64,000 nt of DNA, taken from contig PUQB01000350.1 of NCBI GenBank assembly GCA_003024785.1, forward strand, positions 197,919 to 261,918, read 5' to 3'. Both the position numbers and the translations under genes were made by a program. Below the pieces are notes generated by a model. The model was not told where the DNA came from, ran no database searches, and saw only the letters and a program-made list of their open reading frames with translations. The stretch is from Selaginella tamariscina (lineage: Eukaryota; Streptophyta; Lycopodiopsida; Selaginellales; Selaginellaceae). The stretch's first letter is position 1; every line of letters starts with the position of its first letter. Shown piece after piece: positions 43,097 through 64,000 of the stretch.

Positions 43097-43113
43097 ATCT
43101 AACATATATGCGT

Positions 43114-43461
43114 TGTAACTAAAATAGGCATATTTAAACATTTTTTAATAATTAATAATTTTATTTATTTAATTAACATTTTCTAATATTAAAAAAGTAT
43201 TCTTTAGAATAATATATATAAAGATAGAATATTTTTTAAAACATTTTATTTTTGTAATTAAACCTTTAATAAATTATAGTATTTGTGGACCGAAAATTAA
43301 TAACATTATAAAAGTAGAAGGTATTAATATAATATATTATATTTAAGATTGTATTGGTCTAGTATAAAAATTATTAAAGACTATAAGAGGTACATTATAT
43401 AAATATTATGTTGTTATTAAAATATTAATATTTAAATATAATATTAATTAAAATTTGTATT

Positions 43462-43499
<38 letters not shown>

Positions 43500-44036
43500 C
43501 CTATATAGTCAATCTTCTATATCTTTTTACAAATTTATATAGTTAAGTAAACATTTGGTATTATTATTAAAGAGTTTATTATAATTATAAATATTAAATT
43601 TACTATATTTTATAATTTTATAATTTCTTTAAGCTTCAAAAAATATATATTTTTTTACAGTTTTATTAATTATGACTTTATTAATGCTTCTTAATATCCA
43701 CCAATATCAAATGGATTTAATATTTATAAAACATATTACATCTTTTTTAATTGGAAAATTATGTTTTCTCTAAACATCCATTATATATTTAGATTTCCTT
43801 TTCATGTCATTTTTTTAATAATTTGAACCATGTAATGTTTACCATATTTTTTTTATTTTTTTTTTGTCAAATGTGTTGATAATTTAACCCATAAAATAAG
43901 TCAATTATACGACACATCTAGAGTAACAAAGACAATAATTAATTTTAAAGATTCTTATAATAATTAAAGTATATACTTTAGGTTTTTAATTTTTTATTCA
44001 ACAAAGTGTGAGGTTTACATTTTTACATCGCTACTG
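43114..44036 (-). pseudogene. Decayed copy of the 3' part of the DUF7869-type gene
   Basis: This stretch aligns end to end with 50920-51810. It covers about 490 bp of 3' flank and the last ~400 bp of the transposase-like coding region. Differences are overwhelmingly C-to-T and G-to-A in this copy, leaving it extremely AT-rich and non-coding. The alignment stops abruptly on both sides, at 43114 (TTGTAACTAAAAT, shared with about 50920) and at 44036. The left boundary may mark the true end of the mobile element. Confidence 0.8.
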
Positions 44037-49012: not shown

Positions 49013-49086
49013 TGGCTTCATTCAGGTTTGAACTGAAGACCTTCAGCGTGTTAGACTGACGTGATAACCAACTACACCATGAAACC
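49013..49086 (-). tRNA. tRNA-Val (AAC), copy 2
   Basis: Minus strand, same length as copy 1. The acceptor stem GGTTTCA/TGAAGCC is intact. The anticodon loop is CTAACAC (AAC) with stem TCAGT/GCTGA including one T-G pair, and the T stem TTCAG/CTGAA is fully paired although both strands differ from copy 1. Paired changes suggest the structure has been maintained. No T-run follows within about 30 bases, so termination is unclear. Confidence 0.75.
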
Positions 49087-50916
49087 ATAATACTTGGTTT
49101 GTCTTATTAAATCTATATAATTGTAGTATCACATAAACAATGCATATAATGTATACACATGAAGTATTTATTATTTATGATCTCTTTATCTGAACCGGGT
49201 AGTGCATATCTACATCTCTCTTACTCGCGTTTGTATTTCTGATCCTTTTTTGTGGTATACATACACATCTTTGTCTAAATAATGTCTCTAAATACATTGA
49301 AATGTTTAAACTGTATTTTAGAATCTTAAAACGGATATTTTGATATTCTTTTATTTGAGAGAATTCAAATTTAAGGTTTATGTTTTCCTTAATTTACAAT
49401 AAACATCATTATTAATTATCTTTTCATAAGAATTTAAATATACATAAAAATAATGCCTTCTGCATAAAGCTGCTTTTTACACAGTTAATGAAATTTAAAA
49501 GCTCATTAAACTCACCTTATTAAAAAGTAAAAAGTTGCTACATGTATTATATAATGAAACTTTTATATTTTCATATAGTCATTTCTCAAAACGGTTTTTT
49601 TAAAGTGGTCCTAAGCTTTCATATTGTATTAAATTAATGTCAATCAAAAATAATTATTGAATCCATTTTAATATGAAGATACAAATAGTTAAAATATTTA
49701 TAGACAATGTGCTCATGTTTTTCAATTATAAATTATAAGTATGGTCCAAACTGATGCATGTAGTACGATACCTTATCCGTGAAGTTTAATGTAATATTTA
49801 TCTGTTACACACACACATAAATACATATATACACACGCTGTGTGTGTGTGTGTGTTAGAGAGAGAGATAGACATAGAAAAGATCTTTTCTTTACTTAAAT
49901 CTGAACATGCACACACACGGAGGCATGGTATACATACATATCAAAATCAGAGTATACATTGCCTATACTGAATTTCAAGGTTCTGGTCTTAGCAAGTTGT
50001 AATCCTTGCTTTGCCACCAGTATGGGTATACTATATGTATGTATGTGTGTGTATACACATACACACAAGCACACACACACACATATACCTGTGTAGAGAG
50101 GATTTTCTTGTTGGTCCATTGTAATATCTTCATTTTCATGTGATGCAATTAACGGAATGACTTTATATGCTCAATATAGTCCTCGTCCTCTCACAATAAA
50201 TATTTAAAATTTTACTTAAAGCTTAATTAATTATTTAAAACTTACATTATTTGTAAATAAAATTAAGAAAGGTATAGCCGTTTTCTAAACAAGTACTACC
50301 ATTAATTAATATAATCATTAAATTTTCTTTATTCTTTAGCATATAAAACAGGTCATGCTGATATCTAAATCTGGATCGCTGAATTGAAAAGGAATATTCC
50401 ATCCCAACGGCCCAAATTTAACATGCTCTGCATGGAAGAAACAATCCAAATAGCAGTTTCTATTTACGCGCGCGCGCGCGCGCGCACACACACACACACA
50501 CACAATATATATAGAGACAGAGAAGGGAAACTAATGATATGTTCAGTTTAGACGTATATAATATATACACATTCATACCCATACATATATAGGTGTAAGT
50601 GTGTGTATGTGTGTAGTGAGAGACGGAAATTTGCACTGGTTAAGAGAGACATTTGTATATATTAATATAGTTATTGCCATAATTCTTCAAGGAAATTATG
50701 AAAATATGGAATACATTTTAAACTTTTTATTCTTATATTCTTTTACAGGTCCAATTCTATTAGTAGTACCCAAGTAAACATATCATATATTCAACAAAAA
50801 AAAAGATGGCTAACGCTTTCAGCTCATGGAAGTAGAGACAAAACGAGGAGTTTATACCAGAGCCTGAAGGTACGAGCGCTATACAGACACACACGTACTC
50901 ATATATATGCAAGTTG
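49087..50916. other. AT-rich DNA with microsatellites
   Basis: It holds a third, partial copy of the dispersed repeat (about 49240-49520), CA/TG tracts near 49810-49850 and 50040-50090, and an alternating (CG)n-(CA)n run at 50468-50504. No gene is recognised; the open frames are microsatellite translations. Confidence 0.5.
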
Positions 50917-51410
50917 TAACTAAAATGGGCATGGCTATAGTCCCATTTCCTAATAATTAGCAATTTTAGCTATTTAATTAGCATTTTCTAATATTAAAGG
51001 AATATTCTTTAGAATATATGTTTGAAAAGAGAATATTCTTTAGAATATTCTATTTTGTATTCTACCCTTTAATAAATTATAGCATTCATTGAACAAAAAT
51101 TAATAACATTAAAAAGTAGAATGTATTAAATTATATAATATATTGCCTAATATAACAATTAAGGAAGAGCATAAGAGGTACATTATATAAATATTGATGT
51201 TGTTATTAAAATATTAATATTTAAATATAACATTATTAATTAAAAATTTGTAGTAGTAATAATATATATAAAATCCTATAATAATATAGTCAATCTTCCA
51301 TATCATTTTTTAAATTTATATAGTTAAGTATACAATTTGGTACTATTATTAAAGAGTTTATAATAATTATGAATATTAAATATATGATATTTTATAATTT
51401 TGTAATTGCT

Positions 51411-54400
51411 TTAAGCTTCAGAAAACATACATTCCCTTGCAGTTTTGTTAATCGTGACTTTATCAACGCTTCTTGACATCCACCCATATCGAATGGATTT
51501 AACATTTATAAAACATGCTGGGTCTTTTTGATTGGGAGACCATGTTTTCTCTAGGCATCCATTATATCTTTCGCTCTCCTTCTCGTGTCGCCTTTTTTGT
51601 GGTTTGAACCATGCAACCTTAACAATACTATTTTTTGTGATTACTTCAGGTGTGTCGATAATTTGACCCATCCAAATAGGCTGATTATATGACGCATCTG
51701 GAGTAATGAGAACCATCATTAGTTTTTGAAGATCCTTGCAGCAATCAAAGTATGCTTTAGGTTTTTGGTTCCTTTGTCCAACAAAGTGTGGGGTTTGCAC
51801 TTCCACATCACTACTGGCTTCTATGTCGTCTGTGCTCAGTGATGTCATTTCAATCTCCTCTCGCCACCTTGTTTTAGGCCAGAAAGGGTGTTGCAATTCT
51901 GTACTTGTGACAGTAGGCCCTTCCAACTCTCGAACAACAGTCTCCCAATAGTTGACCACATGCTTATATAGTTCTGAGTAACCAGTTGCCTTATCAGAAT
52001 TCTTTGGCATCGATTTTTGAACCCATGCCACATATTTTTTGATGCCATCAATAATAACCTCTTGTTCCTTGAGCTGGGCACTCAATGGAATAGGGTCTGG
52101 TTGTCCTTCTGGGAGAAGTGGCTTTCCATCCTCTCCACTTTTGAAGAGCATTAAGCCCTCTTTCGGTAACCACTCCTGCTCTGATGGCCGTAACTTGTAC
52201 TGCATAATAGGTATACCATCTCGTATGGAGAAAAAGAATTGTAGCGGCACAAGGTGACCAACTAAAGAATCACTCCCTTCTTTTATATACTCCTTGAGAA
52301 ATTTTTTGAAGTCTGGCACCTCAGTCACAAGCAAAGCACAACTTTTTTTGGAGATGCAATTTTCAAAAAGATTCATCATATGCGGTAAGGTAAGTGCACT
52401 TGTCCTTTTTGTAGAGTTGGAGACCTTGCTGAAGAACGCATCAATATCTTCATGAGTGTGACCAACCATAAGGAAACTGAGCGTGATTGTTTCAAACACA
52501 CCTTTGGCAACAAGCATTGACAAGTATGCTAGCACATATCTAGAAAATAAAAGTAAGTATGAGCTTGAGAAACCCTTAAGTAAAATGATTTACCTATTTT
52601 TGTTCTCGCCTGCACAATTATCCATCTGTAAAAGCAAATGACGAGGAAGCTTATTTGATGTTGAGGACACATGTACACTATTTGAGCTAGATCCCTCCAC
52701 TGAACCTGAACTCTCAACAGGGCCATCTGTTTTTTGTGCAGGTTGCTGACAATGCCTCTCATATTCCCAAGTAGCCTCAAGTGCAGACGTGTTCATGAGA
52801 GCATTATGTAAAGGTTGAAGGTGTTGTTTCTTCACTTTGAGATCACTGATAGGACTTGTCTGTGAGTGGGCTTCAAGGTTTCTGAAACACATGGCTAACG
52901 ACCCAATAGTGAAATTGGAGTCGCTAGACCAATGTGGAAGTGAAAAGTGTCCATATGACTCACAACCGTGTCCATGTGTTAGCACACCTGTTAAAGAAAT
53001 CGGAAGTTTCATGACATTTCCAAGGCACTTTGGTGTTGCAAAGAGCTTTGGAATGCTGGTCTTTGAATGATCCATCTTGTCATGGATCAAGCACAGTACT
53101 CTGATGGGCGTGACACAGAAAGCATGCGGTGTGCATAGTACTGAGACCGACAAGTTTGTTGTGCAATCATGTGGGCCTCCATCTTCCTTTGAATGGTAGT
53201 GATCTCCACCAAGGTTTTTGCACAAGCCTCTGCAGCCTTCAATGATGTACAAGTGTCACACTTAGAAAAGCTAGAGTGTTTTGCAATCTCCACATCCTTA
53301 AAATGAGTATTCCATATGTTGTTGAAGGTACCAGTGCAGATTGCTTGGAGCCCCATCAAACTGAGGCACTTGTTCACATGTTCACACAGTTTCAATTGAG
53401 TGTAGATTGAAGGTAAAACCTTGAGATTTTCCCTGACCCCTGCATTTGTGGTTCGGCATTTGTGAGGCATCCTGTCTGCATTTGCTTCCACAAAAGCCTT
53501 GAGTATCTCTATGGCTGCCATGATGTGAGAGCGGGTTTTGACCAAGCGAGTGTTCCCATGAACTGAGGTTCGCGCTCCATCTAGCCACTCATCCCTCCGA
53601 CGGTAGAACGTGGTCTTTGGGATCCCGTATATACTGTACCAAGCTTTGAAGCAGATGGCCACCTTATTAAATACCATGGATGTACTCTGATAACCTGTGT
53701 CCGAGGCCATTCCATCAATACACCCAGTTAGTGCAGCATATACAAACTCATGCCTTTGCTTTTGGGTGAGCATACGAAAGACATGTCTACATTGGGTAAT
53801 TTCATTCCGGTCTGCCATCTGACAACACTTCTTCTTGCAACAGTCAATCGTGGAAATGCTCGTAACACTTTCGGAAGATGTAGGATCCATCTTTACCCTC
53901 TTGCTGAAACTTGCAGGGGAAGATCTACAACCCATGAATCGCCTTTTTCTTACAATAGGACCAATGCAAGGAACCTCTTCAAATATGAGTTGTTCTTCCG
54001 GGTTGTTATTATTGAAATCCAACCCAGAATATGTTGAACCATCTTGCCGTCTTAATTCAGATGTTCGCCACCTCACGAGGGATCCAGGATACAATGTGCC
54101 ATTAGGTGAAACCTCTGTCACAACTACACCCACGAAGTCGGACCCTAGTTTCTCTTCTGACACTGCTTCCATTGGATTTATAGCTGTGATGATGCCTCTT
54201 CCGACTTCAATCTCACGAAGAAAGAGAATCACCTCATCCATCACAGCAGGCAAGCCATCATCTGGTAAACTCGTGCTACTATTTGTTTGTGACTCTGCAT
54301 ATTTTGTGTCAGCCTTGACTTCATCCAAATTCCACAATACAGGAGAACCCTCCTCAAATTCCATTCCCAGAACCTCAACATGCTTGAAAATGGTGTTCAC

Positions 54401-54529
54401 CCATACGTACACACAAGATCCTTGGGAAATATTGTGACATGATGCATTATTATCTCGAACTTCCACAGTTCCAGTGCCAACTATCTCGTTGTTCCGAAGA
54501 AGACATACTTTATCTCCAGTATTAAACAT
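51411..54529 (-). CDS. DUF7869-type transposase-like protein
   Basis: Minus strand, about 1000 residues. It has a long first coding block (54529 to about 53090), a second (about 53095-52594), an intron with GT-AG ends (52593-52540), and a last exon 52539-51411 ending in TAA. The N-terminal part (GDKVCLLRNNEIVGTGTVEV) resembles the small module found in plant En/Spm-associated proteins. A Cys-rich segment and FSKCDTCTSLKAAEACAK follow. The core has LIHDKMDHSKT, LLLQMDNCAGENKNR and FLMVGHTHEDIDAFFSKV, the hallmark of DUF7869 proteins, thought to have an RNase H-like transposase fold. An acceptor-like GCAG at 54538-54541 lies before the first ATG, so an upstream exon is possible. The frame steps by one base near 53090, between conserved blocks. 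The upstream side is a palindrome array. Confidence 0.8.
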
Positions 54530-54683
54530 ATTGTCCTGCACATAAATAATTGTATTATTTATGATATCTGTTTATGCAATATTTTTAAGAAATCTGAATT
54601 ACGGTTACTTAATAATATGCATATGCAATAATACATAATTATGTTTAGAGATAATATCTCATGTTTGATTAATACAACTGATG

Positions 54684-55637
54684 GGCGGGATTAATCCCGC
54701 CAACGAATCCCTCCGACGAGGAACGGTCGGCGGGATTAATCCCGCCGCCGACTCAACCCCTTCGGAGAGAGTCGGCGGGATTAATCCCGCCTTGGACTCC
54801 CTCCGACAAGGAAGAGCCGGCGGGATTAATCCCGCCGCCTCTTCCTCCTCGGGGGAGTCCGGCGGGATTAATCCCGCCGACTCTCTCCGACGAGGAAGGG
54901 AGTCCGGCGGGATTAATCCCGCCGCCGACTCAACCCCTTCGGAGAGAGTCGGCGGGATTAATCCCGCCTTGGACTCCCTCCGACAAGGAAGAGCCGGCGG
55001 GATTAATCCCGCCGCCTCTTCCTCCTCGGGGGAGTCCGGCGGGATTAATCCCGCGCCTCTTCCTCCTCGGGGGAGTCCGGCGGGATTAATCCCGCCGACT
55101 CTCTCCGACGAGGAAGGGAGTCCGGCGGGATTAATCCCGCCGACTCATCCTCGCCGGAGAGAGTCGGCGGGATTAATCCCGCCGGACTCCCTTCCTCGTC
55201 GGAGGAAGAGGCGGCGGGATTAATCCCGCCGGCTCTTCCTTGTCGGAGGGAGTCCAAGGCGGGATTAATCCCGCCACAATTCTTACGACGGGGAATGGGT
55301 GGCGGGATTAAATCCGCACATAACTCTCTCCAAAACTATGATTTCAAAGAGATCTCGGGATAAATCCTGTCCCCAAATCTTTAAAACAGTGAAGTGGTGG
55401 CGAGATTAATCCCGCCACCCCTTCCCTGCCTCCTAAAATGGTTGGCGGGATTAATCCCGCCGACAACTCTTTCTAATAAATTCTGGTAACTCTTCATCAG
55501 TTGAGAAGGTTATCGACGGGATTAATCCCGCCACTCTTTTTCAGTGGCGGAGAAGCATTGCCCGGGAGATGGTGGCGGGATTAATCCCGCCACTTCTTCA
55601 AAGAGGCGAAAAAGAAATGGCCGGATTAATCCCGCCG
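54684..55637. repeat. Palindrome array 1 (GGCGGGATTAATCCCGCC)
   Basis: About 20 copies of the perfect 18-bp palindrome GGCGGGATTAATCCCGCC, spaced mostly 42-47 bp, in GC-rich spacers. Copies 1-14 (to about 55275) are near-identical; the last six or so are degraded. Spacers are themselves repeated: the block from about 54749 recurs at 54927 (offset 178 bp). They often pair with one another as inverted repeats. The array lies about 140 bp upstream of the first ATG of the minus-strand transposase-like gene. The surrounding DNA is strongly AT-rich, so the array is a sharp GC and CpG island. The half site TCCCGCC also matches the core of plant E2F sites. Confidence 0.95.
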
Positions 55638-56565
55638 CCCCGGTTAACCTAGAATATTAAGTTAAAAGGATATTTAAACGTGATAAATCCCTAACGGAAT
55701 ATATTATAATCCTAATGCATTTCTAAACCCCTAAATTGTAATTTTAAGAGAGAATGTAAGAGAGTGAATCTTAATAAGTATTTTTAAATTTGTTTATAAT
55801 ACTTACTTGTAAACAGCACTGAAGGCGCCGTGCTTTCCTATAAAGAATAGCACCCAATTTAATCTCGCTCCTGAGATGATCACTATGAAGAAAAAAGAAG
55901 ATCTAAAGAGTGAAAAATACAGAAATGAAGAAACCCTTGCCGGAGAAAGAACCAGATCTGAATTTGAGTGGGAAATTAAATGCATTTTCAAATTTATATG
56001 TCAGACCGACAATACATATGTCAGAAATTCAAATTTTTTAAAAAGAACAGAAAATAAAATTTAAGATGAGTTGACACAAATATCCGACACTCTGACATAT
56101 ATACTCTCCAGTTCCAATGAGTATTTTAAAATTGCATTTAATGTTATTCAAGTGATTCAAGCTGTTTAATATTACGAAATTTTAGACTATATTCTACATT
56201 CTTAGTATTCAAGTATATTTATATTATATATATATATAAATATATACTTATACAATAAATAAATTGATATATTATATGTATCATTTAAAATATATTCATA
56301 GTCTGTTTATTATTATTATTTTCTTAATTACTCGAGTATTTAGTTTTCATTTCCTAGTATCAATGGGATATTCTTTAATATTTTATTAATATTTGAAGAA
56401 TATTCTAATATTAAACCTGATTATCATAATTAAATTAGTCTTGTTCTTAATTATTGCAGTAATTATTCTACATTTGTATATATTAATGGGATTTTCTCAA
56501 TTAATTTGTTATTATTTCAAGAATATTCATGTGTTAAACCTTATTATCAATATTAAATTAATACA
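55638..56565. other. AT-rich DNA with a repeated unit
   Basis: Non-coding AT-rich sequence. A unit at about 56355-56562 (ATGGGATATTCTTTA...) recurs with changes at 56692-56888, offset near 335 bp. No gene seen. Confidence 0.5.
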
Positions 56566-56972
56566 CACTATGAACATATTTTAAATTATACATAATAATA
56601 CATCATTTTATCTAATATATAGTCATATATAGTTTTAATAATATATATATTAATATCATTTCCTTAATTACTTGAGTAATTAATCTTCTTTATATTAATG
56701 GGATATTCTTTATTATTTTCTTATTATTCCAAGAATATTCCAATATTAAACATGATTATGATAATTAATTTAGTTAATTATTTGAGTACTTAATTTACAT
56801 TTGTATATATTAATGGGATTTTCTCAATTAATTTCTTATTATTTCAAGAATATTTCAATGTTAAACCTTTTTATCAATATTAAATTAATATATATTATTA
56901 AAACTATATATGGCTATATATTAGATAAAATCATATATTATTATGTATAATTTAAAATATGTTCCTAGTGTG
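56566..56972. repeat. Foldback element with ~80 bp inverted arms
   Basis: The arm at about 56567-56650 is the reverse complement, with few differences, of the arm at about 56888-56970 (TTTTATCTAATATATAG on one side, CTATATATTAGATAAAA on the other). The ~240 bp between are AT-rich and non-coding. The shape fits a MITE or foldback element; no clear target duplication was found. Confidence 0.6.
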
Positions 56973-57234
56973 TTTATTAATTTTATTTTCTTAATTATTC
57001 GATGTTTGTTTTGCACACATATATAAACACAATCATAAATTTACACACGCATTACAAGAACTTACAAAAACACATATGCACACACATGCACAACCCTAAA
57101 CCAAACTGAAGAAATATGTTGCTTCTTTATTGAAAACATCATGTTCAACGCATGTATGATATATGTACTCAATCTGTGTATATGTAACACATTGAATTTA
57201 CATGTGTAATATTTATATTAAGCTTGTTGGGAGC

Positions 57235-57272
57235 AAACCCTAAACCCTAAACCCTAAACCCTAAACCCTAAT
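57235..57272. repeat. Interstitial telomere repeat (CCCTAAA)n
   Basis: About five uninterrupted copies of the Arabidopsis-type telomere repeat, between the two palindrome arrays. Confidence 0.95.
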
Positions 57273-57727
57273 ATGTAACACAATGAATTTACTCATGTAA
57301 TATGTATGTATGTCTGTGTGTATACACGTGTGCATGTATATATGTGTACTCTGTATGTATATATGTACTCTGTATGTATATATGTGTACTTTCTGTCTTC
57401 TCTCATACATACACACCATGCATGATCCATGTTAATATGTACTGTCTCTCTTCTCTCAAACATACACACCATGCATGATCTATAATATGTACTCGGTCTC
57501 TCTAATATTATGTACTAATATGTATGTATGTCTGTGTGTATAATACACACCATGCATGATCCATATTAATATGTACTGTCTCTCTTCTCTCATATACTAT
57601 GTATGTATATCTGTGTATAATATGTGTAAGTATATATGTGTACTAATATATGCAATGTGTACAAAAATAATTTTTCAACACTCTCTCTTCTCTCATACAT
57701 ACACACCATGCATGATCCATCCTAAAT
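57273..57727. repeat. Tandem duplications of microsatellite-rich units
   Basis: The units contain CATACACACCATGCATGATC followed by ATATGTACTGTCTCTCTTCT, and recur three to four times (near 57404, 57461, 57546 and 57700). Each is mixed with TATGTATATATGTGTAC motifs. The DNA is non-coding. Confidence 0.65.
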
Positions 57728-57730
57728 CCA

Positions 57731-57757
57731 AAACCCTAAACCCTAAACCCTAAACCC
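57731..57757. repeat. Second interstitial telomere repeat block
   Basis: Nearly four copies of CCCTAAA in the same orientation as the block at 57235-57272. The sequence after it (TGTATGTCTGTGTGTATACACGTGTG) also matches that after the first block, so the two lie in duplicated segments. Confidence 0.95.
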
Positions 57758-58109
57758 ATGTAATATGTGTGTATGTCTGTGTGTATACACGTGTGTATGT
57801 ATATATTATGTGTATTAATATATGCAATGTGTACACATGAAACTTTAACACTCTCATGGACACACACATGTTAAATCCCTGCATGATTTATATTTTTGAG
57901 GTGTATGTGATACACCCACACACACGCACGCGCTAATAATATAATGAAAGAATATTCGTTTAGGGCGAATCTATATTTTATTCTTTTTAGGGTTTAAGTA
58001 TATTCTCAGAAGGAATATTCTATTAGGGTTGATATATATATTTAATTCCTTTAGGGTTTAGGTATATTCTTAGGGTTTCAAGAGGCGGCGGCTGTGAAAT
58101 CGGCGGCGG

Positions 58110-58132
58110 CGGCTGTGCACACAGGTGAGATC

Positions 58133-58163
<31 letters not shown>

Positions 58164-58385
58164 ATATGTATAGGAGTGTGCGTATAATTTTTTTTCTTAG
58201 TTTTATCTCTCGCACACACACGCACACTCCTGTGTATGTATATGTGTCTGTATGATTTATTTGTTTCGCTCACACACGCATACACACGATATACATATAC
58301 ACATATATATATATATACCTATATACATATATACATACATATATTATGTGTACCAGTATCTGTAAATTTTTTTTATTGATCTTGC

Positions 58386-58417
<32 letters not shown>

Positions 58418-58427
58418 ACACACACAG

Positions 58428-58458
<31 letters not shown>

Positions 58459-58547
58459 GTGTACCAGTATCTGTAAATTTTTTTTTATTGATCTATCTCT
58501 CCCACACACACGCGCACTGCTTTACACACACACACACACACACACAC

Positions 58548-58590
<43 letters not shown>

Positions 58591-59275
58591 CAATGCATAT
58601 TAACAAATAGTATACAACACTAGTTTATATATATGCTTATATATTCATAATATACACACATATATATATGTGTGTGTTTATCTGTATAATTTTATTTATT
58701 TATTAGTTTTATCTCTCGCACACACACGCACACTCCTGTGTATGTATATGTGTGTGTGTGTGTGTTTGTTTATCTGTATGATTTTATTTGTTTCGCTCAC
58801 ACACGCATACACACAATATACATATACACATATATATATACCTATATACATATATACATACATACAACACTAGTTTATATATATGCTTATATATTCACAG
58901 ACTCTCTCTCTTTCTCTATAGATTATATATCTATATACACACATATATATGTGTGTGTTTATCTGTATAATTTTATTTATTTATTAGTTTTATCTTTTGC
59001 ACACACACGCACACTCCTGTGTATATATATATGTGTGTGTGTGTGTTTGTTTATCTGTATGATTTTATTTGTTTCGCTCACACGCATACACACGATATAC
59101 ATATACACACATATATATACCTATGTACACACATATATTAGGTGTACCAGTACTGTATAAGTTTATTTATTTATCTATCTCTTGCACACACACGTACACT
59201 CCTATATACATACATACATACATATATATATATACACACACACACATATATATGTGTGTGTTTTTATCTCGCTAA
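58110..59275. repeat. Compound microsatellite with ~200-300 bp higher-order repeats
   Basis: Long (CA)n, (TG)n and (TA)n tracts embedded in a larger unit that recurs four or more times. The unit contains TTTTATCTCTCGCACACACA, a (TG)n run, TTATCTGTATGATTTTATTTG and TTTCGCTCACACACGCATAC. All open frames here are repeat translations. A (GGC)n stretch lies at 58084-58114. Confidence 0.8.
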
Positions 59276-59285
59276 GCCCCTCGAG

Positions 59286-60828
59286 CGGCGGGATTAATCC
59301 CGCCGCTATATAGTTGGGGCCATGGCGGCGGGATTAATCCCGCCGCCGAGGCCCTTCAGGCATGGGTGAGCGGCGGGATTAATCCCGCCGCCGAGGCCCT
59401 TCACGCAGGCTATGGGCGGCGGGATTAATCCCGCCGCTCTACGACAAACCGAAGAGCGGCGGGATTAATCCCGCCGCCCATAGCCTGCGTGAGGGGCCTC
59501 GGCGGCGGGATTAATCCCGCCGCTCATCCATGCCCTGCGCGGAATGCGGCGGGATTTATCTCGCCGGCAATGGCCTGTGTGAAGGTTCTAATGGGCGGGA
59601 TTAATCCCGCCGGATTCCGCGCAGGGCATTTACAGGGAATGGGCGGCAGGATTAATCCCGCCGCTCTTCGGTTTGTCGTAGAGCGGCGGGATTAATCCCG
59701 CCGCCCAGGGAATTCACGCAGGACATGAACGGCGGGATTAATCCGGCCCCACGCTCATGCCCTTCGCGGAGGGCGGCGGGATTAATCCCGCCGTTCATGT
59801 CCTGCGTGAATTCCCTGGGCGGCGGGATTAATCCCGCCCCCACCCATCCCTGTTAAAAATGCCGCAGCCAATATATATGTGTGAGCGCATGATTTACGAG
59901 AGGGCGGCGGGATTAGCCTCCGAACCTTCATTCCCGGTGGCGGATTAATCCCGAACCTTCATTCCCCATTGGTATGTTGAATCAATCCCGACTAACTCTG
60001 TCTGAGACGGAGAAGGTTTACAAAATACCAATGGAGGGAACCGAGAAGGGTGGTGGGATTAATTTCACCATCCCTTACATGGTGGGCGGGATTAATCCCG
60101 CCGCGTACGCATGCCCTGCGCGGAATCGGGCGGGATTTATCCCGCCGCCATTGGCCTGCCTGAAGGGCCTAGGCGGCGGGATTAATCCCGCAAGATTTCG
60201 CACAGGGCATTGGCGTTCGGCGGGATTAATCCCGCCGACTAAGGCCCGAGTGAAGGGCCTGGGAGGCGGGATTAATCGCCGCGAACGCCAATGCCCTGCG
60301 CGAATCGGGCGGGATTTATCCCGCCGCCATTGGCCTGCCTGAAGTGCCTAGGCGGCGGGATTAATCCCGCCCGATTCCGCGCAGGGAATTGGCGTCCGGC
60401 GGGATTAATCCCGCCGCATAGGGATCGAGTGAAGGCCCTGGGCGGCGGGATTAATCCCGCCGAGTCTTCAATGCCTGTTGGAGAAATGAATCTCGCCACC
60501 CTTCCCTTTTTCCTCCATTGGTGAGTTGGACCAATCCCAAACGTTTCTGTCTAAGACGTAGAAGGTTTACAACATACCAATGGAGGGGACTGGGAAGGGT
60601 GGCGAGATTCATTTAACCATCCCTTACATGGTGGGCGAGATTAATCCCGCCTCCTTTCTGGAGTCACTGAAGGGGTGTGAGAAATAAATCCTGCCCAGTT
60701 CTCTCTGAGACCGAGAAGGGTGGCAAGATTAATTCCGCACTCCCGTTCAAGGCCTCCAGAAAGGTGGCGAGATTAATCCCGCCCACTCTTTCAGGAGGCA
60801 TTGAAGGGGTGGCGAGATTAATCCCGCC
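59286..60828. repeat. Palindrome array 2 (GGCGGGATTAATCCCGCC)
   Basis: More than 25 copies of the same 18-bp palindrome as array 1, spaced about 38-50 bp, with most copies to about 60470 well kept and later ones degraded (GGCGAGATTAATCCCGCC). Spacers are different from array 1 and contain motifs such as GCCCTGCGCGGAATC and TTCACGCAGG. They form nested inverted repeats: the segment around 59400-59500 is one large palindrome with a copy in each arm. The array ends about 340 bp before the first ATG of the ParB-like gene on the plus strand. Array 2 therefore mirrors array 1, each lying upstream of one of two divergent genes. Confidence 0.95.
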
Positions 60829-60942
60829 GCACCTTCCATGTGAATATATATGTGTATTAGTATATATAAGTTGCATATCTCATTTTATTTACTTTTATCA
60901 TCTCTTCATATTATTTCGAGTAAAAGCTAGGAATCTATGTAA

Positions 60943-61029
60943 AACTGTCCAGAGCTCACATTTGTGGTGGTTCTAAAACGAAATGTTATCTTTCTTTTGC
61001 ACTAACACAAATGTGAGCTTCGGACAGTT
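60943..61029 (+). other. Near-perfect 24-bp hairpin before the ParB-like gene
   Basis: The arms 60943-60966 (AACTGTCCAGAGCTCACATT...) and 61006-61029 are reverse complements except for two adjacent positions, with a 39-base loop. It lies between palindrome array 2 and the first coding exon, so it is in the promoter or leader. It could be a structured leader, a small foldback insertion or a small-RNA precursor. Confidence 0.75.
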
Positions 61030-61171
61030 AATTACGTCTACTTCTCTCTGTGTATTATTTTTGTATATTCGGGTTTATACAAGTGTGTGTGCGTTTTTAT
61101 ATAATTTATATTTATAGTGTATTATTTTGCAGAAGGACGATTTGATCAAACAAGGAGATCGAGTCATTAGT

Positions 61172-64000
61172 ATGGAGTCGTCGTCAAATTCTGGGTAAGA
61201 ATTAAAATAAAATCTGTTATACTCGGATACTTGAACTAATCATTTTTGTATTCAGATGTGGAATTGAGGTGACATTAAAGTCAAGAGCAGGAGAAGAGAT
61301 GGGCAGGGGGATTCTGGAATCAACTTGGCCATATTTTAAGATAAATGGGAAGCGCATTGGAGCAACCATGGCTGCTGTCAAATTAACCTCTGTCACATCT
61401 CATGGACAAGTAAAACAATGGAAAGTTGATTCGCTAGTCAAGCACCCGAAAGCAGGCTGCGAACCCAGATTGGACGATGCTCGACAGATATGCCTTGTTC
61501 CATCCAATGTCACGTTCTCGGATCCAGAGGTCGTCAGTTACAACATTAATCTCGGGTGGTTTTGTCGACTTGTGGATAATGACGTTCACGTGTTCACTAA
61601 TGATGTTGACCTTGGAGTTCTTCTTCAACTCAACGAAAGCCCATCTATGGAGGGGATCCATCTGGATGTCTACTTCGAAGATCTTCAGACTCATCGAGTA
61701 GGTGTATTGTCAGGAGATATTGTTTCACAATACAGAAAATCAGCAAGTGGAGCAATCTTCCCTCTTGACATTGAAGAAGAACACAGCGACATCATAAGGG
61801 AGATTGAGAAGGTGGCTCGGTCTCAGGTTCTCTACAGATCACGTTCAATTTGCTTAGGAAGCTTCGGGAGCTGGAGCAGTGTGCCGAGAACACTAGAACA
61901 GCTGCAGTCGGGGATCACACATGTTGATTCGGATCGCAAAAGAAAATCATCAATCGTTTTGTCAGCTGCACCTGTGGCATCTCATGCTGCAATAAGTCAC
62001 AAGGAAATGATGTTGGATGATAAGATTTATCCTTGTAGGGTTAAATATTGCAGCGTCAACCCAAACTTCAATTACAGGCCACTCAACCAGGAACGTGTAG
62101 CTGAGCTCATGGAGAAGATGAAGGACGACAATTCTTATACCGTTCCACATAATGCTGTTTTGTGTCCATACTATGAAAGAAGGAAGGGTGCTGACAAAGT
62201 CTGGATCACAACACCAGAACAACTCATGAAGATTCAGACGGAGAATAAAAGATCTATCAAGTACTACATCATTAGTGGCCAGCACACAATAACGGCAGCC
62301 CAACGACTTCTCGAAGAACACAACAAAGGAACGATGGCAACAAAACTTTCCGAGCATACCCGTGAGAAGCTGACAAAAAGATCGGCGTTTTTAGCTAAGC
62401 CGAATCTCACAATCGAGCAGTACCATAAGTTATCGGCGGAATGGGACGCTGCCGACACCAACCACTACAACAGCAAAATATGGGAGAAGTTTAAACACAC
62501 GCGAGCCGTGTGGGAATCTCTTCAGCGACCACAAAGAGCTACCGCAGGGAATACACAATCTGCGGAATACCGGGTAAGCAAATTGTTTGGGCGGGATTTA
62601 TCTCGCCGGTATATTAATCTGTCTTTTTCCTCAGAGAGTTGAAGAAATTGCAGCAGTTGATTTTGCCCAGGTGGGCGGGAAGGAAACATCATTTCTGATG
62701 ATGTTGATTTCTTGCCCCGAAGATAGGATCTTTGCCAAATGGTTGGGGATTATGGAATCCTTTTCAAAAGGAACACTGAAGAAGAAGCAGACAAGTGAAG
62801 GGGAGCCCTCAGAAAAGTCTGCAAAGAAACCCAGTAAGACGCCGAAGGCTAAGTCTGTTCAATCTAAAAGGATGTAGACAACGATTTCAAGCTCACATGG
62901 TTGAAGCCTTTAAATGGAACAACGATGGAGGAGATGGAAGTCTTGGCTGATTTGGTGATCGATGGCAAACTACAAATCAATAACAGCAGCCCAACCTCTC
63001 CTTTTCATCTCAAGGCAATGGAGTTGAAGACGGTCAGGCATTTCAAGGAGTGGTTGGGAATACACTGCCACAAACTGGGTTGGACCTCGACTTCAACATA
63101 TGAAGAGGTTAGCAAATATTTGCATGTGACGAACGATGATATGCTTGTCGAATGGGTGAACCAATCGGAAGATCTAGGCAAGAATCTATTGCACGCCAAC
63201 GCCAAAAAGGAGAACATTGGGATGACGCCTTCTCTTATGGCAGTCCTTCAGCAGCGGAGAACCGAATTGAACCTTATAAAGGAGGATGCTACGAATCACG
63301 ACAAGCCCTACAGATGTTTGTTGTTAGATTCGGAGACTTTATGGGGTAACATCACTGCTTGTAGGAAACCGTTTCAATTGTTCGTGATGGATCGGCGGGT
63401 GTCAAAAAATCTTTCGACAGATAGGGCACTAGAGGATCTGGTGGAGAAACTTAGCCGTGCAAGCATATACATAGAAGGTATTTATTATTGAATTCATGCT
63501 TGCGCTCTTCACTGATACCTACTTTTTCAGGTATTTATTTCTTGATTCTTGCTCATGTCACCGATACTTTTGCCTTCGCCTTCGCCAAGAAGAATAGACA
63601 TCGTTGGACAGGATTTTATATGAACGATGCTAATCCCAAGTGCATTGATACTGTTGTTCACTTGGTTGTTAGGAATGCGCCAAACAATTTCAAGCTTCCA
63701 AATGACTGGCCAGGCATCTGTTTGCACTCCAACGGCCCTGAACCTCCATCCGATACACCGATAGGTATGAGTGACGTATTCGGCAATGTACGTTATCCAA
63801 ACATTACAAGTCAAGCGGCACGGAGCATCGTCAACTTGATCAGGGGTCCTCACAGTGATGCGTGGGTTTTTGACTACTGCACTAGGGGGTCCGTCTTGAA
63901 GGAGTGTTACCTTCGGCATACATGTGTGTTTGCCGTTGAGAAGGATAAGACCATGGTTGAGGACCTGAACAAGTGGATAGATTGGGTCTCAACTGAGTAC
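61172..64000 (+). CDS. ParB-like and methyltransferase-like protein, runs off the window
   Basis: Exons: 61172-61194, 61256-62573, 62635 to about 62870, about 62870-63477, and 63531 to beyond 64000. The first ~250 residues match nothing I recognise. Around residue 270-350 comes a ParB/sulfiredoxin-like region: NYRPLNQERVAELMEKM, then YYIISGQHTITAAQRLLEE, where GQHTITAAQ fits the GxHRxxAA box. A basic linker follows (KKKQTSEGEPSEKSAKKPSK). The last part resembles a beta-class methyltransferase: EDLVEKLSRASIYIEGIYFL, and AWVFDYCTRGSVLKECYLRH with FAVEKD in the place of the SAM-binding motif. The expected [DNS]PP[YFW] catalytic motif is not visible; MDRRV stands near its place. The frame steps once near 62870. 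A palindrome copy sits in intron 2. Fusions of ParB-like and methylase domains are common in bacteria and phages and rare in plants. Confidence 0.7.
62590..62607. repeat. Palindrome copy inside an intron of the ParB-like gene
   Basis: GGCGGGATTTATCTCGCC lies in the 61-bp intron 62574-62634 and differs from the array palindrome at two positions. Variants with TTTATCTCGCC also occur in array 2 (near 59547), so this copy probably came from there. Confidence 0.85.

Follow-up and report, generated by a model that had tools for sequence, protein, structure and literature searches.

Few transposon systems, to our knowledge, carry an address code of their own, in which a dense array of one motif is read by a protein of the element. 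En/Spm elements follow a two-protein logic, that of TNPA and TNPD, with a site-binding partner; CACTA elements have CACTA ends, 3-bp duplications and subterminal sites, and VANDALs are of MULE type. In VANDAL21, according to the available text of the reports, the element protein VANC21 binds dense short motifs and removes DNA methylation (PMC5735166, PMC10398659); its sites precede the transposase gene and also occupy introns, and the arrays change quickly (PMC5735166). Sola elements, in the accessible parts of their descriptions, show 4-bp AT-rich duplications, terminal inverted repeats (TIRs), a DDD transposase, a size that may exceed 15 kb and an occurrence in moss (PMC10741241, PMC3627910, PMC9033089); they are known from the moss Physcomitrella. 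Here, we describe two arrays of an 18-bp palindrome, GGCGGGATTAATCCCGCC, in 64,000 nucleotides of Selaginella tamariscina (assembly GCA_003024785.1, contig PUQB01000350.1, forward-strand positions 197,919 to 261,918), a stretch hereafter called the window and numbered from its first letter. The arrays and the divergent genes beside them are not a local feature; they belong to a single large DNA transposon (about 15.1 kb) that is high-copy, recently active and Sola-like.

The resemblance to Sola comprises the 4-bp AT-rich duplications, the inverted repeats, the putative DDD-type residues, the size and the occurrence in moss, whereas the available portions of the Sola descriptions say nothing of palindrome arrays, a second gene or a NIF-like gene. 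The fit to Sola is one of description, and we name the transposon Sola-like. With VANDAL21 it has in common a dense, element-specific, non-coding motif placed both upstream and in an intron, but the VANC21 motif, in the text available, counts 9 bases and is arrayed in one orientation, unlike an 18-bp palindrome. General Pfam scans of the transposon's open reading frames (ORFs), which included no comparison with a VANC sequence, gave no VANC-type domain among the matches listed. The transposase N-terminus recalls CACTA elements through a sub-threshold TNP1/EN/SPM match (PF03017, E 0.21); membership of that group was rejected in view of the ATGCA ends, the 4-bp duplications, the internal sites and the DUF7869 transposase. 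An origin in viruses or prokaryotes was also discarded, as no relatives were present in viral contigs and the single palindrome site seen in an IMG/VR contig was taken as chance. Titles and opening lines of abstracts in the open-access literature contained no earlier description of the element, and neither DUF7869 nor the palindrome string was mentioned in the open-access literature searched.

Palindrome arrays within a dispersed transposon

The main features of the window copy are listed below.

50907..66014 (window part 50907..64000; L009:2014 = 66014), no strand: Sola-like DNA transposon, 15,108 bp, delimited by TIRs and target duplication
50903..50906, no strand: target-site duplication ATAT, second copy at 66015-66018
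50907..50933, + strand: left TIR, 27 bp, ATGCAAGTTGTAACTAAAATGGGCATG
51411..54529, - strand: transposase gene, DUF7869 (PF25273), with an N-terminal TNP1-like region (Pfam and translation)
near 52537-52591, - strand: transposase intron (splice model)
54684..55636, no strand: left array with 20 palindrome sites, of which 15 exact, lying upstream of the transposase gene
59287..60828, no strand: right array with 25 palindrome sites, of which 15 exact, lying upstream of the ParB-box-like gene (here the second gene)
~61172-61194, 61256-62573, 62635-63477 and 63531 onward (ending in L009), + strand: exons of the second gene (GT..AG reading, no transcript)
62590..62607, + strand: palindrome copy with 2 mismatches in a second-gene intron

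Allowing up to 3 mismatches to GGCGGGATTAATCCCGCC, we count 46 sites in the window, where none are expected from 100 dinucleotide shuffles. Forty-five of them, 30 being exact, fall in the two arrays, and the remaining one is intronic, its sequence (at 62590) being identical in all 4 copies matched by an exact flanking probe. The first-pass annotation had spoken of more than 45 copies, a figure that stands with mismatched copies and the intron site counted (46) but not for exact copies (30). It had also described the arrays as flanking a divergent gene pair: each array does lie upstream of one of the genes, but both sit between them, one array per promoter. A distance of 155 bp separates the left array from the first ATG in the transposase frame (54529), which an in-frame GTG precedes at 54541, and one of 344 bp separates the right array from the start codon of the second gene (61172, splice model). 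Across the genome (300.7 Mb, 1,391 contigs), exact copies of the palindrome number 27,128, while the same letters reversed occur 0 times.

With sites admitted at up to 4 mismatches, the array units show sharp 18-bp edges and a spacing of mainly 44 to 46 bp. Mean pairwise identity is 0.921 for the cores, 0.458 for the spacers and 0.322 for shuffled spacers (858 pairs, from arrays of at least 9 units); spacers compared with reverse-complemented spacers reach 0.437. The spacers are thus largely diverged in either orientation and the cores are not, and cores about 92% alike beside spacers about 46% alike are the pattern expected for selected binding sites. We rejected the idea that spacers form mirror-image hairpins, since their arms match in 14 of 224 cases against 16 of 224 random pairs, which is not above chance. 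In the cores, the most frequent replacement is T for the outer C of CCG (14%), together with its mirror (9%). Change in coding blocks is highest at CG and CWG (0.028 and 0.027) and low at CCG (0.017), so that a simple methylation story does not fit.

In the samples taken, array and genes travel together. Of the 11 palindrome clusters among the sites listed, which cover the first 2.08 Mb of C1, 10 have coding matches to one or both genes; at the eleventh (C1 2071485), what is left is part of a decayed array, surrounded by old fragments. Both genes are matched in 7 of the 8 sampled stretches (one on the window contig, C672, and seven on C1), while C1g has the transposase half alone. Starting from the gene side, with every tenth of 96 scored exon 2 copies of the second gene (n=10), the 2 kb upstream of the exon contain 24 to 30 sites (at most 4 mismatches) in 9 of 10 cases, L062 having 2. 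The transposase lies at the expected distance, in a 1.5-kb stretch, in 9 of 10 as well; it is missing from L072, which comes from the same copy as L062. The first-pass annotation had proposed checking for such co-occurrence of palindrome and genes, and in these samples it is borne out. An exact left end was located 9.8 to 10.6 kb from the exon, in the same orientation, in 9 of 13 assessable exons among the matches listed (14 lie on contigs of the left-end list, of which C236 was left out).

The limits of the transposon are well marked. The sequence ATGCA(A/C)GTTGTAACTAAA(A/G)TGGGCATG forms an inverted repeat at both ends, with small differences among copies, and 26 of the 27 bases of the left end are matched exactly 1,004 times genome-wide (536 + 468). 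The other sampled C1 stretches have the same left end in 7 of 7 cases and the same right end in 6 of 7, C1g being without its right half. The 4-bp duplication is exact in 4 of 7 two-ended copies (ATAT, ATAA, TTAT and ACAT); among the others, C1a has one mismatch, C1e a one-base shift and C1d a damaged right end. Deliberately wrong pairings of flank 4-mers agree in 1 of 42 cases by hand count. Together, the inverted ends and the 4-bp duplications place the window copy at 50907-66014, and the earlier suggestion of a selfish element finds its form in this transposon, which contains the arrays and both genes. The flanks of C1b1 and C1b2 are identical over 50 bases on each side, so these two look like one insertion duplicated later with its flanks. 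Two rearranged copies, C1:2054335-2059941 (within C1d) and L062, have a left end inverted beside right-half sequence, which in L062 is that of the second gene.

The transposase and the second protein

The transposase matches PF25273 above the cutoff of 26 in two pieces (94.1 and 51.6 bits); its reading frame is broken near 53087 in the window copy. Residues 250-800 of the transposase, joined from two copies, retrieved 128 DUF7869 relatives at E<=0.001; the 120 listed include Physcomitrium, Ceratodon, Riccia, molluscs, echinoderms and corals, and the best of them is 52% identical. The IxDxMD, QxD and HTHxDxD positions are invariant in DUF7869 alignments of 8 and 38 sequences, and these acidic positions may correspond to those of a DDD/E transposase. 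Substitutions between copies, counted by codon position after dropping copy matches of <85% identity or <150 bases, number 77/53/120, 34/24/37 and 10/2/27 in three parts of the transposase, and 69/83/153, 18/24/77 and 49/44/69 in exons 2, 3 and 4 of the second gene. This pattern indicates constraint at the protein level in most parts of the two genes, weakly so in the C-terminal part of the transposase. The window copy of the second gene also has a frame break, near 62868. In a survey of 96 scored exon 2 copies out of 6,564 candidates, 12 are identical in protein (window copy included) and 90 are without a stop.

The start of the second protein resembles the N-terminus of the transposase, with a score of 60 against 23.6 +/- 4.5 for shuffles, none of 300 of which reach it. 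The common stretch (EVGRGI...LG...V.V..V...W...L) has a BLASTP E value of 6e-4 over 39 residues and pairs the second transposase stretch with the first stretch of the second protein; the other stretches compared agree no better than chance and give no further repeats of this domain. It is also this part of the transposase that has the sub-threshold TNP1/EN/SPM match. Since two proteins of one element have the domain in common, they may read the same DNA.

The GQHTITAAQ box pointed out in the first-pass annotation is genuinely encoded, in the ORF at 61269-62642, but the assignment of its protein to ParB is not supported by closer comparison. The second protein gave no PF02195 (ParBc) match in Pfam at E<=1 or then at E<=10, a search in which HMMER filters drop most weak matches. 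A ParB profile (11 of 16 loci) does align at GQHTITAAQ, with 1.6 bits, a score equalled by 48 of 2,000 shuffles, and pairwise comparison with single ParB proteins yields z values of -0.7 (YubM) and 0.5 (SopB). Pfam, NCBIfam, PHROGs, PDB sequences, tblastn against phages, pairwise and profile comparisons were all without a significant match, and these negative or weak results lead us to label the protein ParB-box-like rather than ParB. Judged by eye, its C-terminal half follows the motif order of a beta-class DNA methyltransferase. That half has no intact DPPY, the motif position reading MDRRVSKN, and no methyltransferase match in Pfam. The F plasmid enzyme aligns at the expected motif (RYPN...LI...VFDYCTRGS vs HHPTEKP...LDPFAGSGS) with z 1.1, and the YhdJ methyltransferase aligns elsewhere on the same half with z 0.9. 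A dead methyltransferase fold is a lead to follow here.

Candidate readers of the palindrome

The two arrays are promoter regions of the transposon and probably act as docking sites for a regulatory protein, which the transposon itself may encode. We favor, with a probability of roughly 0.55, a central regulatory region in which the palindrome would be read by the second protein of the transposon, possibly with the transposase as partner, and in which both promoters would be controlled or protected. The 18-bp palindrome would be bound by a dimeric DNA-binding protein, for which the second protein is the likeliest candidate, and the transposase, with the same N-terminal domain, might join in the binding. 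Occupancy of both promoters could then control or protect the expression of the transposon genes, in the manner of TNPA or VANC, and the array, as a high-density and element-specific address, would make family members alone respond. This proposal builds on the co-occurrence in the samples, the placement of the arrays, the conserved cores, the coding constraint and the common N-terminal domain, from which binding, dimerization and anti-silencing are inferred. By analogy with Arabidopsis VANC, our best reading is a sequence-specific regulatory or anti-silencing system, and the first-pass idea of an array that serves autoregulation as a cluster of sites is still a good one. If the element works like VANC or TNPA, it would stand as a separate, independent instance, with a transposase of another family and an unusually uniform palindromic 18-bp code. 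Because the motif is known and occurs in such numbers, direct tests of binding, of protection from methylation and of co-evolution are feasible.

A number of observations weigh against this proposal. The identity of the cores is inflated somewhat because sites were picked by at most 4 mismatches, even though the contrast between cores and spacers is still large. Whole arrays have a CpG observed/expected ratio of 1.04 to 1.13, but the ratio of the spacers by themselves is 0.67 and gives no sign of arrays escaping methylation; the richness of the arrays therefore says nothing about silencing, and an anti-silencing signature in base composition was rejected. Four of the 13 assessable second-gene exons are without an exact left end at the expected distance. 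The ParB and methyltransferase tests on the second protein are not significant, and no homolog of it was recovered among 5.77 billion proteins, whether at full length (E<=0.001, 7,614 candidates) or with exon 2 residues 240-439 (E<=1, 218 candidates). Its role in DNA binding is thus proposed from the common N-terminal domain and a short motif.

A more elaborate version of the same idea, which we put forward tentatively, would make the second protein a palindrome regulator of the element's own, joining a ParB/Srx-like domain, a dead methyltransferase-like domain and the transposase N-terminal domain. The transposon family would keep matching sites at its promoters, more than 27,000 in the genome, as a way round silencing, and a hairpin RNA and a captured phosphatase-like gene would be further parts of this counter-defence.

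Alternatively, a host factor might bind the arrays, either E2F/DP or another protein reading GGATTAATCC, with the transposon timing its expression, for instance to S phase. This is the best placed of the rival explanations, although we consider it rather unlikely. The position of the arrays at promoters suits it, and TCCCGCC is common to E2F sites, which had led the first-pass annotation to offer an E2F-like promoter array as an alternative. The plant E2F consensus is WTTSSCSS; neither strand of the core matches it, and the 2.5 kb of arrays contain 5 matches in all, counting both strands, which weakens the E2F version. In addition, a typical host site would be shorter than a strict 18-bp palindrome centred on ATTAAT, and a host factor might be titrated by sites numbering more than 27,000.

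The DUF7869 transposase might instead bind the arrays for transposition itself, in synapsis or end recognition, as at the subterminal repeats of CACTA or Ac elements. We regard this as improbable. The transposase does have the N-terminal domain of the second protein, but the arrays lie 3.8 to 4.7 kb and 5.2 to 6.7 kb inward of the transposon ends and are not subterminal. The rearranged copies in C1d and L062 have few or decayed sites, although they may not have moved in that state.

A role for the element's own protein also has to be set against passive, satellite-like repeats, spread by slippage and template switching between palindromes with no protein bound. Rearrangement is visible in the arrays: 42 direct and 14 inverted spacer pairs of 1,051 are at least 80% alike, pointing to recent copying of segments within them. 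This explanation appears very improbable to us, since the spacers have drifted to 46% mean identity while the cores are still at 92%, and the arrays persist, the left one in 8 of 8 sampled stretches and the right one in 9 of 10 sampled copies elsewhere. The partition or tethering centre that the first-pass annotation had entertained, in which a ParB-like protein would use parS-like sites, recalls ParB-parS in its ParB-box-like motif and adjoining palindrome cluster but is hardly credible for a dispersed, integrated DNA transposon with target duplications in a eukaryotic host, without a ParB profile match and without a ParA-like ATPase in the 10 ORF pieces scanned by Pfam (DUF7869 and NIF alone were above cutoff). 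A motif array beside a bacterial-looking box can suggest partition even though the context is a transposon.

Hairpin, phosphatase-like gene and surroundings

Two further features lie between the divergent genes.

55637..59286, no strand: AT-rich, microsatellite-rich centre, fast-diverging among copies
60943..61029 (arms 60945-60966 and 61006-61027), + strand: long RNA hairpin between the right array and the start codon

The hairpin is nearly perfect (-45.3 kcal/mol, z -9.2, with 0 of 200 shuffles as stable), has the size and pairing of a microRNA (miRNA) precursor, and is kept in 7 of 7 oriented copies and in 10 of 10 further copies. Rfam gave no match at the window hairpin. It could be a precursor of miRNA or small interfering RNA. 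Rice miR820, according to the available text, is located in CACTA elements and has OsDRM2 as its target (PMC3459959); the likeness is that of a long RNA hairpin in a transposon, known here from sequence alone.

A third gene, at L009:504-1725, is NIF-phosphatase-like (PF03031, 39.4 bits against a cutoff of 21.8, E 6.5e-10) and was possibly captured from the host. Active NIF/FCP1 phosphatases have the catalytic motif DxDx(T/V); here the motif reads LLDVNGVLL, with Asn in place of the second Asp. Substitutions by codon position in two parts of this gene (23/20/34 and 16/27/18) reveal no clear protein constraint.

The AT-rich centre contains short telomere-type CCCTAAA runs at 57238-57265 and 57734-57754. 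Such runs are also present in C1a and C1d, and there are none in C1b1, C1b2, C1c and C1e. Like the bryophyte names among the DUF7869 relatives, they suit a land plant. Outside the transposon, about 7 kb away, the window carries the diverged (78%) left end of a related element at 43106-44036, and a tRNA match of 58.2 bits is found at 49013-49086 on the - strand, 1.8 kb beyond the left end.

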